The notes beneath the pieces were generated by a model. It searched no databases. It saw only the letters and a program-made list of their open reading frames with translations, and was not told the DNA's origin. The position numbers and the translations under genes were made by a program. Of a stretch of DNA of 54,031 nucleotides, positions 1 to 7,124 are shown piece after piece (the stretch's first letter is position 1; each line of letters opens with the position of its first letter). Source of the DNA: Methylocystaceae bacterium (GTDB lineage Bacteria; Pseudomonadota; Alphaproteobacteria; Rhizobiales; Beijerinckiaceae); NCBI GenBank assembly GCA_900299115.1, contig OMIO01000106.1:1-54031 (forward strand), written 5' to 3'.

Positions 1-1484
1 ATTTACATTATTCATTACGCAAATTGCATCGCGAACTCGATCGAACGCGACACGTACCGGCTGAAAATGACCAGGACAAGGCGAAAAAAAAACACAAACT
101 TGCGCTTTTGCTAACGACGGTAAATACGCTCCAAGACAAACTGATTGAAACGACCCAGCGCTCTGACGCTTGGAAAATTAAGCGCTTTAACCCTGACCCA
201 GGAAAAGCCAAGACCTCTACCGCCTCTGCAGAGCAACACGCGGTCTTCAAACAGCCTTCGTCAAAACGAATAGCAAAATTGAGAGAAGAAGACTTAAGTC
301 CGATCTTGAAAAATTTATCGAGAAAACTCGCGGCGATAGAGAGCCGTCTGGAGAGAATTGCGGCACCAGAGAAACATCAGATATCAACTTTGAATGAAGC
401 TGCGATCCAGCTGGATACAATTTGCGATCAAGACAGACTTGAGATCAAAACTGCGGACGGATGGAAGAAATTTGAATTAAAATTAGCTGAACTTGCTCAG
501 CAAATAAGATTATCCTCCAATTCAAAGCACCATTTAAAAGATAGTGAAGCAGCGCAAAGCTTCAATATTTTGACTAAAGAAATATTAAGGCTGGATGAAA
601 AAATCAGCCAGTCTTTATTAGACAAAGAAATAAGTCATAGTAATATCCAAGCGTTTTTTACAGAAATCTCTCAAAAAATTGATCACGCCTTTAATTGTAG
701 CGAAACTCTCGAAAAGCAGAATAAAGATAATTCTGTTCAAGCCGATATTCTTCAGATGATTTCTGAAATAAAGTCTGAAGTGTTACAGAATAAAAAATGT
801 ATGGAACTAAGTGAAAATCATCACTCAGCGCTGATCAAATTAATTAGCGATCTAAATGAGAAGCTTGAGATTATCGTAAAGGATAAAAACACGACATCTT
901 CTCTGGAAAATCTTAAGACGCAAATCGAAGGCTTAACGCAAGCAATCCAAGCCCATCAATCTAATGGCGGGGATAGGAACATTCTTGATGCGCAGTTTAA
1001 AGAGCTGAACAATCAGATAAAAATGATGCAAACTGATACCTCCCTTACAATACAAGAGAGCTTTAAAAGCATTCAACACGCCTTGCTAGAACTTCAGCCT
1101 AAGCAAACGTCTCCGGCAGGCGCGGCCTACGAAGCACAGCTTAAATCCGACAGACAGACAGAGGCGGATACTGATTTTACATCAGTTGAAAAAAATACTT
1201 GTTCAATGGCTGAAGATTTTTCGCTCAAGAGACCTTCATCCATTCAAAAAGAGTTTATTGCCGCCGCTCGCCGAAGCGCGGATCAAGAACGGTTTGTTGA
1301 TCTCGCCACTCCCACCGCGACACACCAGTCCACTACACAAACCTTGTCCCTATTTAAGGTTCTCGAAGAGAGGAAGAAATCTCTACTTCTTTGCTTTGGA
1401 CTTTTTGGCATATTAATCGCTAGTGAGCCGGTTCACGAAACCAAAAATTATATTTCAAATCTCCAAAATCTAGCGCCAAAATAA
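1..1484 (+). CDS. Coiled-coil protein with C-terminal TM segment, 5'-truncated by window edge; possibly PodJ/Sel1-like polarity scaffold N-terminal part
   Basis: Frame is open to base 1 upstream of the TTG at 24; long charged heptad-like regions; segment KEFIAAARRSADQERF before a hydrophobic SLLLCFGLFGILIAS stretch, then stop. Confidence 0.6.
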   Translation, partial: LHYSLRKLHRELDRTRHVPAENDQDKAKKKHKLALLLTTVNTLQDKLIETTQRSDAWKIKRFNPDPGKAKTSTASAEQHAVFKQPSSKRIAKLREEDLSPILKNLSRKLAAIESRLERIAAPEKHQISTLNEAAIQLDTICDQDRLEIKTADGWKKFELKLAELAQQIRLSSNSKHHLKDSEAAQSFNILTKEILRLDEKISQSLLDKEISHSNIQAFFTEISQKIDHAFNCSETLEKQNKDNSVQADILQMISEIKSEVLQNKKCMELSENHHSALIKLISDLNEKLEIIVKDKNTTSSLENLKTQIEGLTQAIQAHQSNGGDRNILDAQFKELNNQIKMMQTDTSLTIQESFKSIQHALLELQPKQTSPAGAAYEAQLKSDRQTEADTDFTSVEKNTCSMAEDFSLKRPSSIQKEFIAAARRSADQERFVDLATPTATHQSTTQTLSLFKVLEERKKSLLLCFGLFGILIASEPVHETKNYISNLQNLAPK

Positions 1485-1899: not shown

Positions 1900-2778
1900 C
1901 TATCGCTCTTTATTCATAACCTCTGTTTTAATTTGGCGCGTTACGAGCCAATCCGCCAATTTCGTTGGCAGCATTGGCGGCAAAATATAATCAACAAAGC
2001 GATTTTGTACGACAGCGATGCGCGCTGGCGGATTTTTAGCCACCAAGGCGTAGAACACCGCATCAGCAACCTTATCTGCTGAGGGCGCATGGCGTCCTTT
2101 ATTGATGATCCACTCGCGCATGCGCCTTGCGGATGCCGCGTAGATTGTGTGGTCATACGGCGAGAAGTCGACAGCCTCCGCCTTGTCCCATATCGGCGTT
2201 GCAATCATACCGGGTTGAACAACGGTTACTTTGACGCCAAAGGGAAGTAATTCGCGCCTTAAGGCGTCTGACAGCGCCTCAAAACCGAATTTAGAAGCGC
2301 TATAAGCCCCAAGAAAAGGAGCGGCAAACCGACCTGCAACTGAACTCATGTTAACAATGCGTCCGGGCGGGCCGCTTCTCGTTTGCCCGCCAGCACCCAA
2401 ACAGGACGCAAAAGCCTGGATAACTTGCAACTGGCCAGTGAGATTAACGGCAATTTGCTCACGAAACTTGCTGAGAGGAATGTGTAAAAGAGGCCCGGGC
2501 GCGGCCATGCCTGCATTGTTTACAAGACCAGCAAGCGTCGCGCCGGCTAATTTTTTATCAACATACTCTACTGATCGTAAAATATCTCGATCATTCGTAA
2601 TATCAAACATCAGAGGCGAGAAATTACGCCCAAAGCGTATTTGTAATCGCTCAGCATCTGCCTCCGTGCGCACGGATCCAAACACAAAAAAACCAGATGT
2701 GATGAGTTTATTTACGCATGCCGCGCCAATTCCCGTGGATGCGCCAGTAACTAAAATCACCCGCGCTGTTGATGGCAT
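1900..2778 (-). CDS. SDR family NAD(P)-dependent oxidoreductase
   Basis: N-terminal VTGASTGIGAA, NNAG, catalytic S...YSASK motifs. Confidence 0.9.
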   Translation of the reverse strand: MPSTARVILVTGASTGIGAACVNKLITSGFFVFGSVRTEADAERLQIRFGRNFSPLMFDITNDRDILRSVEYVDKKLAGATLAGLVNNAGMAAPGPLLHIPLSKFREQIAVNLTGQLQVIQAFASCLGAGGQTRSGPPGRIVNMSSVAGRFAAPFLGAYSASKFGFEALSDALRRELLPFGVKVTVVQPGMIATPIWDKAEAVDFSPYDHTIYAASARRMREWIINKGRHAPSADKVADAVFYALVAKNPPARIAVVQNRFVDYILPPMLPTKLADWLVTRQIKTEVMNKER

Positions 2779-4142
2779 GAAATTTCCTGACGCTCTAGAA
2801 GCCGAGACAACGTTTCGCTTGTTGATATGTCAGCTTGCCCATCGACGCGCGCTGGACGGAAATGACGTTGAAAGGCTGCAACAGTTATACGCGTGTCCTC
2901 ATCATAAATCCCGGTTATCTCCAAACGATAGCCAAATTGCACAAGCTTTTGCTGTAATCCGCAGACATCAGATCCTTGTGCGCCAATAGTTAACGGCTGC
3001 TTGTCGTCTGGCGGCGCTGCTTCTACGTAACTCCCGACGCCAGCTTGAGCCAAAGCATCCCATGGAAAAAATTCTCCAGGATCGATTTTACGCTTTGGCG
3101 CAATGTCAGAGTGCGCCAATACGCGATGTTGCGATATGTTTCGACGCCGACAAATATCCCTTGAAAGCTTAATGACTGACTCAATTTGTCTTGGCGGGAA
3201 GGGATGGGCGTCTTTATGGCCAGGATGCGCAATCTCAATACCTATAGAGCTTGCGTTGAGATCTGTTTCGCCCGCCCAATAACTCACCCCGGCATGCCAG
3301 GCCCGCCGTTCTTCAGGCACAAGCTGAAGAATTTTCCCATCCTCTTCAACAACGTAATGAGCTGAAACCTGAGCAAGGGGAGAGCATAATAATTCTAAAG
3401 CGCTCTCTGCAGTAGGCATGCCTGTATAATGCATCACTAAGGTTGAAATTGAGCGGGAGCGCGCTCCATGGTTTGGTGAGGGTAAAACACATGCGTCACT
3501 GTAGTCAGGTAAAAAATCACGACATAATTCCGGCGTATCGCGCCAGGGAGCTGTCGCCGTTATCCATTCTTTTGTTCGGCTCTCCGGTTCTGAATTCTTC
3601 AATATATCTGTAACAACGCAGGCGCTATCTGCGCCAGAAGCAAGCGCCAAACATGCGCGCGCTGGGGTCAACCCACCTATTGCAACCAGAGGAATGGAGC
3701 CTATCTGCTTCTTCCATCTCTTGAGACGGCCTAGTCCTTGAGGCGCAAATTTCATTTCCTTCAGAATAGTTGGCCAGATTGGACCAAGCGCAATATAGTC
3801 CGGCAAATAAGATAATGCGCGCTCCAATTCTTCTTCATCATGGGTGGACACGCCAATGCGCACACCATGTCTACGCAACGCGTTCACATCGGCTGTCTCT
3901 AAATCAGACTGCCCAAGATGGACGAATTTACATCCTAAATCGATCGCATGATCCCAATAATCATTGATGATGAGCTGGATATTATTTGCATGACAAAATT
4001 CGCGCGCGAAGGAAATTTGTGTTCTGATATCGCGTTCATTACAATCTTTCATACGTAGCTGGACAAGCCTCACCCCCATCGGAGCGAGCCGGGGCAACCA
4101 CTCAGCATGATCGATAATGAGATAAAATGGATCAAGCGTCAT
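2757..4142 (-). CDS. Fusion protein: thiamine-phosphate synthase (ThiE) domain + AmpD/AmiD-type N-acetylmuramoyl-L-alanine amidase + peptidoglycan-binding domain
   Basis: N-terminal ~200 aa: VQLRMKD, INDYWDHA, VHLGQSDL, ALGPIWPT, VAIGGLTP (ThiE). C-terminal: SPNHGAR, LVMHYTGM, WHAGVSYW, IGIEIAHPGH, LAHSDIAPKRKIDPG (amidase_2), LQQKLVQFGY...ITVAAFQRHFRP (PG_binding_1). Confidence 0.88.
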   Translation of the reverse strand: MTLDPFYLIIDHAEWLPRLAPMGVRLVQLRMKDCNERDIRTQISFAREFCHANNIQLIINDYWDHAIDLGCKFVHLGQSDLETADVNALRRHGVRIGVSTHDEEELERALSYLPDYIALGPIWPTILKEMKFAPQGLGRLKRWKKQIGSIPLVAIGGLTPARACLALASGADSACVVTDILKNSEPESRTKEWITATAPWRDTPELCRDFLPDYSDACVLPSPNHGARSRSISTLVMHYTGMPTAESALELLCSPLAQVSAHYVVEEDGKILQLVPEERRAWHAGVSYWAGETDLNASSIGIEIAHPGHKDAHPFPPRQIESVIKLSRDICRRRNISQHRVLAHSDIAPKRKIDPGEFFPWDALAQAGVGSYVEAAPPDDKQPLTIGAQGSDVCGLQQKLVQFGYRLEITGIYDEDTRITVAAFQRHFRPARVDGQADISTSETLSRLLERQEISCHQQRG

Positions 4143-4240: not shown

Positions 4241-5035
4241 TTATGACAGTTGATCAAAGGGCCTACCAATAATCGGCGTTGAGGGTTCGGCCATATCGCG
4301 TGGAAGCATCGGTTTGGCAAAAAAAGCGCTGCGTCCTGCTTTTATCGCCAAGCTAAAGGCGCGCGCCATTTCAACGGGATCGCCTGCGCGAGAAATAGCT
4401 GTATTGAGCAAGATCGCGTCATATCCCATTTCCATGACCGCAACTGCATGCGAAGGCGCTCCAATACCTGCATCAATGATTAATGGCGTATCAGGAAAAT
4501 GGGCGCGTAACGCCCGCAAGGCGAATGGATTATTGACACCCCGACCTGATCCAATTGGCGCCGCCCATGGCATAAGCGCTTGACACCCAAGATCCAACAA
4601 CTTTTCTGCAACAACGAGATCATCTGTCATGTAGGGCAGGACATAAAACCCTTCCCTAATCAGCGCGCGCGTCGCTTCAATAAGGCCAAAAACATCGGGC
4701 TGAAGCGTATCCTCTTCACCAATGACTTCTAGTTTTATCCAATTTGTAGCAAAGATCTCACGCGCCATTTGCGCTGTTGCGATGGCTTCTTTAGCTGTGC
4801 GACAGCCAGCGGTATTAGGTAATACTTTTACACCTAGATTACGAATAAATGACCAGAAACTCTCTCCTGAGCGCGTCCCTCCCGCTTCACGGCGCAAAGA
4901 GACCGTCACCATTTCACACTCGGAGGCGCGAATGGACTCCTCAAGCGCTAAAGGGGAGGGATAGCGCGCAGTTCCAATAAATAATCGCGATCCAAATTCA
5001 GATCCATATAAGCGCAGACGATCCGCATCAGGCAT
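4241..5035 (-). CDS. thiG: Thiazole synthase ThiG
   Basis: [57 protein letters not shown] motifs. Confidence 0.95.
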
Positions 5036-5046
5036 AATTAAAATTC

Positions 5047-5244
5047 CTAACCGCCTTGTCTGGGAGTGACAATTTCAACTGCATCATCCTCTTTTAATTT
5101 AATCCCGTCTCGATCTTTGCTACGGACAAACTCTTGATTAACTGCGGTTCCAACTTTCTGATCTTCATAGCCAAGTTCGTTTAATAAACCTCCCAATGTC
5201 GCCGCTCTTACGTCACACTGAAGTCCATTCACGAGAATCCGCAT
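5047..5244 (-). CDS. thiS: Sulfur carrier protein ThiS
   Basis: 65 aa ubiquitin-like protein ending ...[10 protein letters not shown] (C-terminal GG). Confidence 0.93.
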
Positions 5245-6226
5245 TCATTACCTCCGGAAAAAAGGCATCTTCCAACAAGACACGCGCCGCACGTTTCGCC
5301 AATGCTGGCGCAAGCAAGAAACCATGACGATAGAGACCGTTGATGTATAGAGTTTTTTGACGCCGGATAAGCTGCGGCAGGTTATCTCTAAATGCAGGCC
5401 GAACGTCCGAGCCAGTTTCAATAATTTCCGCCTCGGCAAAAGCGGGGTGGATCGCAAATGCGGAGTTAATGAGCTCAACAATTGATCGAGCGGTCACACG
5501 CGCCCGCTCTTCATTTTCAATCATTGTCGCCCCAATCATAAAATACCCCGCTCCGCGCGGCACAATATAGACGGGCCGACGCGGATGCAGCATGCGGATT
5601 GGGCGCGATAATGCAATCTCGTCGCTATGCAAGATCAACATCTCTCCTTTCACGCCTCTCAATTGCCGAAGGTGATCTTTGGCAAGGAAGCCGCGACAGT
5701 CCACAGTCCAGTCCTGAGCCGGCGCGAGCGCTGTCGCATCAACGCCATAGCACTGCGTGACATTCGGCATTTTTTCTAATTGGCGCGCCAGAAAATTTAA
5801 TGCCTGTCTTGGATCAAGATGCGCCTCTTGAGGATAATAGAGGGCAGTTTCGAAACGTCCGCTGAGCTGTGGCTCTAACTGACCCAACGCTGCCGCGTCC
5901 AAATTTTCGAACCGGCTTGTTCTGCGCGCAAAGTCGATTAACTCAGCGCCTTGCCTTGGAGGCGCGACGACGAGCGTGCCGGCGCGGGTAGCAATCGCAA
6001 GTTCCTCCACCCAAAACTCGAGCGCCTCCTGGCCGAGCGAGGCGACAATTGGCTCTGCGGACTCAAGCTCACACCATGGCGCGATCATCCCGCCCGCGTA
6101 ACGTGAGCATCCAGCGCCATGCTGAGGCATGCGCTCTATCAACTCAACGCTAAGGCCCGCACGCGCAAGCACATAAGCCGTGCATAACCCAGCCACGCCT
6201 GCGCCTAATACGCGGACATGCATCAT
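5213..6226 (-). CDS. thiO: Glycine oxidase ThiO (FAD-dependent); likely start MMHVRVLGAGVAG inside the longer ORF 5213..6301
   Basis: GAGVAGLCTAYVLARAGLSVELIER FAD-binding N-terminus, RPAFRDNLPQ, between TPP riboswitch and thiS. Confidence 0.9.
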   Translation of the reverse strand: MMHVRVLGAGVAGLCTAYVLARAGLSVELIERMPQHGAGCSRYAGGMIAPWCELESAEPIVASLGQEALEFWVEELAIATRAGTLVVAPPRQGAELIDFARRTSRFENLDAAALGQLEPQLSGRFETALYYPQEAHLDPRQALNFLARQLEKMPNVTQCYGVDATALAPAQDWTVDCRGFLAKDHLRQLRGVKGEMLILHSDEIALSRPIRMLHPRRPVYIVPRGAGYFMIGATMIENEERARVTARSIVELINSAFAIHPAFAEAEIIETGSDVRPAFRDNLPQLIRRQKTLYINGLYRHGFLLAPALAKRAARVLLEDAFFPEVMNADSREWTSV

Positions 6227-6249
6227 TGAGCGTGACTTTGGAAGATTGA

Positions 6250-6390
6250 AGACACCATCCCTCCGCCAGCATGAGACTGGATCAGGTTCAAAGGGTCGCA
6301 ACGCCCGCGTTCGTTTTACGCGCTTGCCGCCTCTCAGCCCCTGGTCGACGCTCCCCGCGTCAATTCCCGGCAGGGCTCCCCCGGTTTAAC
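6250..6390 (-). promoter_or_regulatory. TPP riboswitch (THI element) upstream of thiO
   Basis: Reverse complement contains GGGGCTGAGAGG ... ACCCTTTGAACCTGATCCAGTCTCATGCTGGCGGAGGGA, the canonical thi-box; located just 5' of thiO. Confidence 0.95.
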
Positions 6391-6539: not shown

Positions 6540-7124
6540 ATGAATCTAACCCAGGCGACAGCCGCCGGCCGCGCGCTCCTTTTCGCAACGCTCCTGTGTG
6601 GTTCGGCGGTTTTCGCCAATAGCGCTGCCCGGGCGGCTGCCATCGGCCCCTATTTCCCGCTCCCAAATGGCTTCAATCTTACCGGCATCGCTAAAGACGC
6701 ATTGCTCAACATCCAGTCCACATGGCTGCAAAACGGCTTAGACAATCTTGCTAAAGCCCGCAAAGAAGCTGACGCTAGTCTTGAAAAAGCAAAAAGCAGC
6801 GCACAAGATCAAGTCGCGGCGATTGAAGAAAAAATAGAAACAATCGACAAGGCAATGGCGGATACGAAGGCGGAACTTGCGCTTGCAACTAATGCCGATC
6901 CCCAACACGATATTCAAATAGAACGCAAAAATAAGTTAATGCTAAATCTTAATCAGTGGATTAACGAGTTAAATCGCTTAGCGACTGAGCAAATGAAAAT
7001 TGCTATTCTTAAAGATGGTAATGAGGCAATGGCGGCGCAGAACCGTAATTACCAACTCTCCGAACAAGCGGATAATCTTGAAAAAGCCAAGCAAGATCCG
7101 AGCATCGAGAATTGGGGAAAATAA
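6540..7124 (+). CDS. Hypothetical exported coiled-coil protein
   Basis: Signal peptide-like ALLFATLLCGSAVFANSAARA; charged helical body; preceded by AGGAG. Confidence 0.7.
   Translation: MNLTQATAAGRALLFATLLCGSAVFANSAARAAAIGPYFPLPNGFNLTGIAKDALLNIQSTWLQNGLDNLAKARKEADASLEKAKSSAQDQVAAIEEKIETIDKAMADTKAELALATNADPQHDIQIERKNKLMLNLNQWINELNRLATEQMKIAILKDGNEAMAAQNRNYQLSEQADNLEKAKQDPSIENWGK

Follow-up and report, generated by a model that had tools for sequence, protein, structure and literature searches.

What is a thiamine phosphate synthase (ThiE) doing in the same reading frame as a peptidoglycan amidase? The question arises from a 54,031-nucleotide contig of a Methylocystaceae bacterium (OMIO01000106.1; hereafter the window), in which a first-pass annotation had pointed to a single open reading frame, of unspecified strand, carrying a ThiE domain, an amidase and a peptidoglycan-binding domain. 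We find that the frame is continuous and recurs across most of Methylocystis, a methane-eating genus, and that its product, ThiE-AmiR, is probably a true bifunctional enzyme of the cytosol with a role in each of two unrelated pathways.

A single frame with two enzyme halves

The fused gene lies on the minus strand of the window and encodes 461 amino acids (Table 1), with gtgcaggaaaaaagctaa immediately before its start codon. Pfam places TMP-TENI at residues 12-180 (3.6e-45), Amidase_2 at 230-357 (8.3e-38) and PG_binding_1 at 389-444 (1.4e-11), each well in excess of its cut-off. An AlphaFold2 prediction of the whole chain reached a mean pLDDT of 93.5 and a pTM of 0.89 (46 sequences); the high pTM suggests, as a hint only, that the two halves hold a defined mutual placement. 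Foldseek searches with this model returned AmpDh2, AmiD and thiamine phosphate synthase.

Table 1. Features of the fused gene and its surroundings in the window.
Feature	Position	Strand	Basis
TPP riboswitch aptamer	6241..6367	minus	RF00059, 47.8 bits, E 1.7e-7
thiO	5213..6226	minus	likely ATG 6226, ORF open to 6301; DAO domain
thiS	5047..5244	minus	TIGR01683 above cut-off
thiG	4241..5035	minus	Pfam ThiG 5.3e-102
fused gene thiE-ampD/amiR	2757..4142	minus	461 aa, ATG at 4142; ORF and Pfam/NCBIfam
ThiE half, residues 1-201	3540..4142	minus	NF000734 above cut-off; PDB matches 1g4t/2tps
junction, residues 194-228	3459..3563	minus	alignment with separate ThiE and AmpD; dN/dS; pLDDT
Amidase_2 domain, residues 229-365	3048..3458	minus	Pfam; aligned to AmpDh2 and AmiD
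PG_binding_1 domain, residues 389-444	2811..2978	minus	Pfam
short-chain dehydrogenase (sdr)	1900..2778	minus	Pfam adh_short; overlaps 3' end of fused gene

The ThiE half scores above the cut-offs of NF000734, the NCBIfam thiamine phosphate synthase model (residues 1-201, 308.9 bits against 252), TIGR00693 (147.3 against 145.1 bits) and PF02581 (154 against 27 bits). Residues Q28, R30, K32, N60, D61, D80, S99 and K128 are invariant across 23 fusions, and K128 aligns with the active-site Lys159 of the B. subtilis enzyme (3o15). Judged from its sequence, this half would join HMP-pyrophosphate and thiazole phosphate into thiamine phosphate, and it is the only strong ThiE in this genome.

In the amidase half, alignment to AmpDh2 and AmiD identifies the zinc ligands as H238, H344 and D354, which are invariant in the 23 fusions, as is E303. 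The order of an Amidase_2 domain followed by a C-terminal PG_binding_1 domain is the AmiR architecture, and the classical AmpD equivalog NF008758 scores 111.8 bits, below its cut-off of 143. The Caulobacter AmpD homologue has the same composition, to which it owes the name AmiR, and experiments there established its recycling role and showed that it cuts anhydro-muropeptides and not sacculi (PMC13046382). On reading the sequence we found no signal peptide, as had been noted before, and no lipobox of the AmiD/AmpDh2 envelope type: the chain opens directly with ThiE, leaving no space for an export signal ahead of the amidase. Separate alphaproteobacterial homologues of this half start with M-x-F-x-PDY and also have no signal sequence, so the amidase stayed in the same compartment when it was fused. 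The first-pass assignment to a recycling-type cytosolic amidase, as opposed to an outer-membrane AmiD, thus stands with a refinement: the domain order is that of AmiD and AmpDh2, in the cytosolic form that alphaproteobacteria have as AmiR. Classed in this way from its sequence as an AmiR-type cytosolic recycling amidase, the amidase half would, by analogy, cleave the stem peptides off (anhydro)muropeptides that the cell has imported.

The fusion is also this genome's only Amidase_2 protein. A NagZ-type, NagZ-sized GH3 protein is encoded elsewhere in the genome (C79), and a TIGR00901 search of the genome did not find AmpG, so the importer must be another; Rhizobiales usually have no AmpG, in line with this absence (PMC9790009). 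Within the genus, an AmpG-type permease exceeds the cut-off in a minority of genomes (6/39), and the Methylocystis rosea group encodes an additional Amidase_2 protein, about 207 residues long, that is absent from this genome.

We favor the bifunctional ThiE-AmiR reading because the active-site residues of both halves are kept, because AmiR and AmpD offer precedents, and because the fusion is the sole Amidase_2 protein and the sole strong ThiE in the genome. Three results count against it, namely the missing AmpG and, both described below, a deletion that splits the two frames in one nested genome (G212) and a midpoint-rooted ThiE tree in which the fused proteins do not form one clade. We infer both activities, the cytosolic location and a lack of functional coupling: the two active sites are most likely independent, with no shared substrate, and the fusion was therefore probably fixed as a tolerated change that was then hard to undo. 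The simplest account is that the fusion was fixed neutrally and then retained, and nothing we found demands the union.

The thi operon and its riboswitch

The fused gene follows three thi genes on the same strand, in the order thiO-thiS-thiG-(98 nt)-fusion; thiO scores slightly under the cut-off of TIGR02352 (240.2 against 250.8 bits). The operon had been described in the first-pass annotation as controlled by a TPP riboswitch. The aptamer is indeed present, 15 nt ahead of the likely thiO ATG, but its score of 47.8 bits is below the Rfam gathering score of 54.3; in relatives L016, L024, L149, L153 and L157 the aptamer exceeds the gathering score, in L016 and L024 at the homologous position.

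This arrangement raises an alternative in which the halves are functionally coupled, with wall recycling following thiamine status through the riboswitch and rising when TPP is scarce. Such coupling draws on the position of the aptamer directly before an operon that runs into the fusion on the same strand, and on the passing scores in L016 and L024. Against it, three genes separate the aptamer from the fusion, which in this half of the genus is itself preceded by a gap of 60-130 nt. Another gene stands between thiG and the fusion in L009/L118 and L016/L089 (on the opposite strand in L009), and in unfused relatives the TPP aptamer controls no genes other than thi genes. We consider coupling unlikely, and quite unlikely the stronger version in which a tie of recycling to thiamine status, through shared riboswitch-controlled expression and a fixed 1:1 dosage, was selected in Methylocystis.

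Several neighboring genes were recorded along the way. By eye, the gene inserted after thiG in L009 (4817-5929, minus) resembles a phage tail sheath protein, and that in L016 (4930-5955, plus) a phytanoyl-CoA dioxygenase. Divergent beside the thi operon of the window lies a gene kept in fused genomes (6540-7124, plus), encoding a conserved 194-residue protein with a signal-like N-terminus, a coiled-coil look and no Pfam match. Likewise without a Pfam match is a 486-residue coiled-coil-like frame at 24-1484 (plus), which has a single hydrophobic segment close to its end and whose relatives are confined to the nearest genomes (L002-L004, 48-63%).

The junction and its conservation

Looking for the same domain order in related genomes, we found it across most of the genus. 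The same in-frame fusion is present in 33 of 39 Methylocystis genomes; stops flagged inside some of these matches proved on checking to lie at the C-terminal end, where the first stop falls in every case. When 84,980 species genomes were scanned, thiE adjoined the amidase gene at 23 loci, all in Methylocystis or its relatives; 22 are in one frame, on public contigs from many laboratories. These results also settle the earlier concern that a frameshift or stop had been missed. Among the remaining congeners, G089, G199, G207 and G209 (4/39) have separate thiE and ampD genes, far apart or on different contigs, G224 (1/39; 490 contigs) gave no clear match, and G212 (1/39; locus L024) has lost 37 nt at the junction, so that its two halves are no longer in the same frame. 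No fusion was found in about 160 genomes from 42 other genera of the family, and no convergent fusion appeared at E<=1e-100 in a sample of 120 further genomes of the order. Methylosinus keeps separate thiE and ampD.

Comparison with separate proteins indicates how the junction is composed. Separate ThiE proteins end in EWLxATA..R-stop (in close relatives ...EWLQATADRRG, ...EWLHATAEWRR and ...EWIAATRA), and the separate AmpD of close relatives begins with MTFLPDYPLARVVPSANHGERLR and the like. The fusion reads ...EWITATAPWRDTPELCRD-FLPDYSDACVLPSPNHGARSR, that is, the C-terminal tail of ThiE, about 8-10 new residues, and the original N-terminus of AmpD minus the ATG; as both the ThiE end and the AmpD start are kept, only these ~8-10 residues are new. 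Across 23 fusions, W193, T197, P199, R201, F210, A217, P221, S222, N224, G226 and R228 are invariant, and the sole length change in the linker is a step of three residues. Nei-Gojobori counts of synonymous and non-synonymous differences inside two clades gave dN/dS values of 0.17 and 0.15 for residues 194-228, compared with 0.12 and 0.18 for ThiE, 0.22 and 0.20 for PG_binding_1, and 0.06 and 0.12, the lowest, for the amidase domain. The junction is protein, and it is under purifying selection. AlphaFold2 models its blocks at pLDDT 84-96, with the last ThiE helix running to residue 202.

These properties bear on whether the amidase is also made alone, either from an internal start or through proteolytic cleavage of the junction. 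The first-pass annotation had found no ATG, GTG or TTG in frame in the linker, which holds: such codons occur at residue 181 and next at 236, so the linker it quoted contains none. The TTG at residue 181, kept in 15 of 23 fusions, is what could serve a separate product, but it is the Leu codon of a conserved ThiE motif, VVTDIL, and is CTG or CTA in eight fusions; no Shine-Dalgarno-like stretch precedes it, and initiation there would add about 40 residues. We rejected TTG181 as an internal start for its lack of conservation and of a Shine-Dalgarno-like stretch. With a junction that, in this genome, lacks all the usual start codons and is modeled as ordered, a separately made amidase is very unlikely.

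The split in G212 is a case of its own. The deletion, in the region L024 6576-6840 (G212:C5), leaves an ATG 39 nt ahead of the amidase domain, the distance seen in separate ampD genes, and would extend ThiE by some 80 unrelated residues. Because L024 sits deep inside the fused amidase group, the split is either secondary or an assembly fault; the union may thus be dispensable, or that metagenome assembly may be wrong. Although L024 does have separate adjacent frames, the idea that a missed stop or frameshift has joined two separate genes in the window is vanishingly improbable, since dozens of independent assemblies concur, isolates and near-complete genomes included, the other junction frames of the window contain stops, and the junction is under purifying selection; the 33 congeneric genomes rule out a sequencing error.

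Origin and relation to known systems

Gene neighborhoods and trees point to a single origin. The sdr gene that follows the fusion is an ancestral neighbor of ampD, as it also follows the separate ampD of Methylosinus, G089 and G207. Both Methylosinus and G207 have another gene ahead of ampD and sdr (in Methylosinus one for an M20-type peptidase) and, further downstream, a shared conserved gene that matches L012 8816-10114 (~86%). Fused genomes have the same ampD-sdr side and a different upstream side, zapA - ... - thiOSGE, and thus a rearrangement broke at the fusion point. The amidase tree unites the fused proteins in a single clade (95/74), with Methylosinus and the separate proteins of G089, G199, G207 and G209 outside it. 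The ThiE tree in which the fused proteins are not one clade is midpoint-rooted with no outgroup, and we give it less weight. The best reading is that the fusion was born once: in an ancestor of most Methylocystis, a rearrangement would have brought thiOSGE next to ampD(amiR)-sdr, a pair already in place, on its upstream side, and the thiE stop codon and ampD start codon would then have been lost, giving one protein from the thiE start site.

The first-pass annotation knew of no standard ThiE-amidase fusion, and the literature we searched has none: queries for a ThiE-amidase or ThiE-AmpD fusion, for Methylocystis ampD and for TMP-TENI with Amidase_2 gave nothing relevant in the open-licence full texts searched, and the combination was not found among solved chains in the PDB. 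It may stand unremarked in automatic domain listings. Both halves belong to known families by sequence, and their combination appears new relative to the literature searched. The locus shows cleanly, and in a way that can be dated, how a rearrangement welded two housekeeping enzymes of unrelated pathways into a protein that a genus has since retained, and living relatives with the pre-fusion arrangement are there to compare. There is also a practical consequence: if the protein is annotated by its first domain alone, as thiamine phosphate synthase, the amidase goes unseen and these methanotrophs would seem to lack ampD/amiR. Shared thiamine control, if true, would connect the turnover of the cell wall to vitamin status in a new way.

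Among known proteins, the amidase half is best matched, in both structure and sequence, by AmiD of E. coli (2bh7/3d2y) and AmpDh2 of P. aeruginosa (4bj4/4bol), which share its two-domain order; both are exported envelope proteins, unlike the signal-less amidase half described here. AmiR of Caulobacter crescentus (CCNA_02650) has the same two domains and is likewise cytosolic with no export signal, but stands alone, with no ThiE half (PMC13046382). By description, AmpD of Agrobacterium tumefaciens (Atu2113) is also an alphaproteobacterial cytoplasmic amidase of muropeptide recycling, whose deletion makes muropeptides pile up in the cytoplasm; it differs in being treated as a gene of its own (PMC9790009). 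On the other side, the ThiE structure 2tps matches fusion residues 23-192 with the active-site residues kept and has no amidase partner. ThiE or ThiE-like domains do occur in longer chains, namely yeast/Candida THI6 (3nl2), the ThiDE-type NF007070 and the Nudix-linked NF006530. In THI6 and ThiDE the partner comes from thiamine metabolism, whereas in the Methylocystis fusion it comes from an unrelated pathway.
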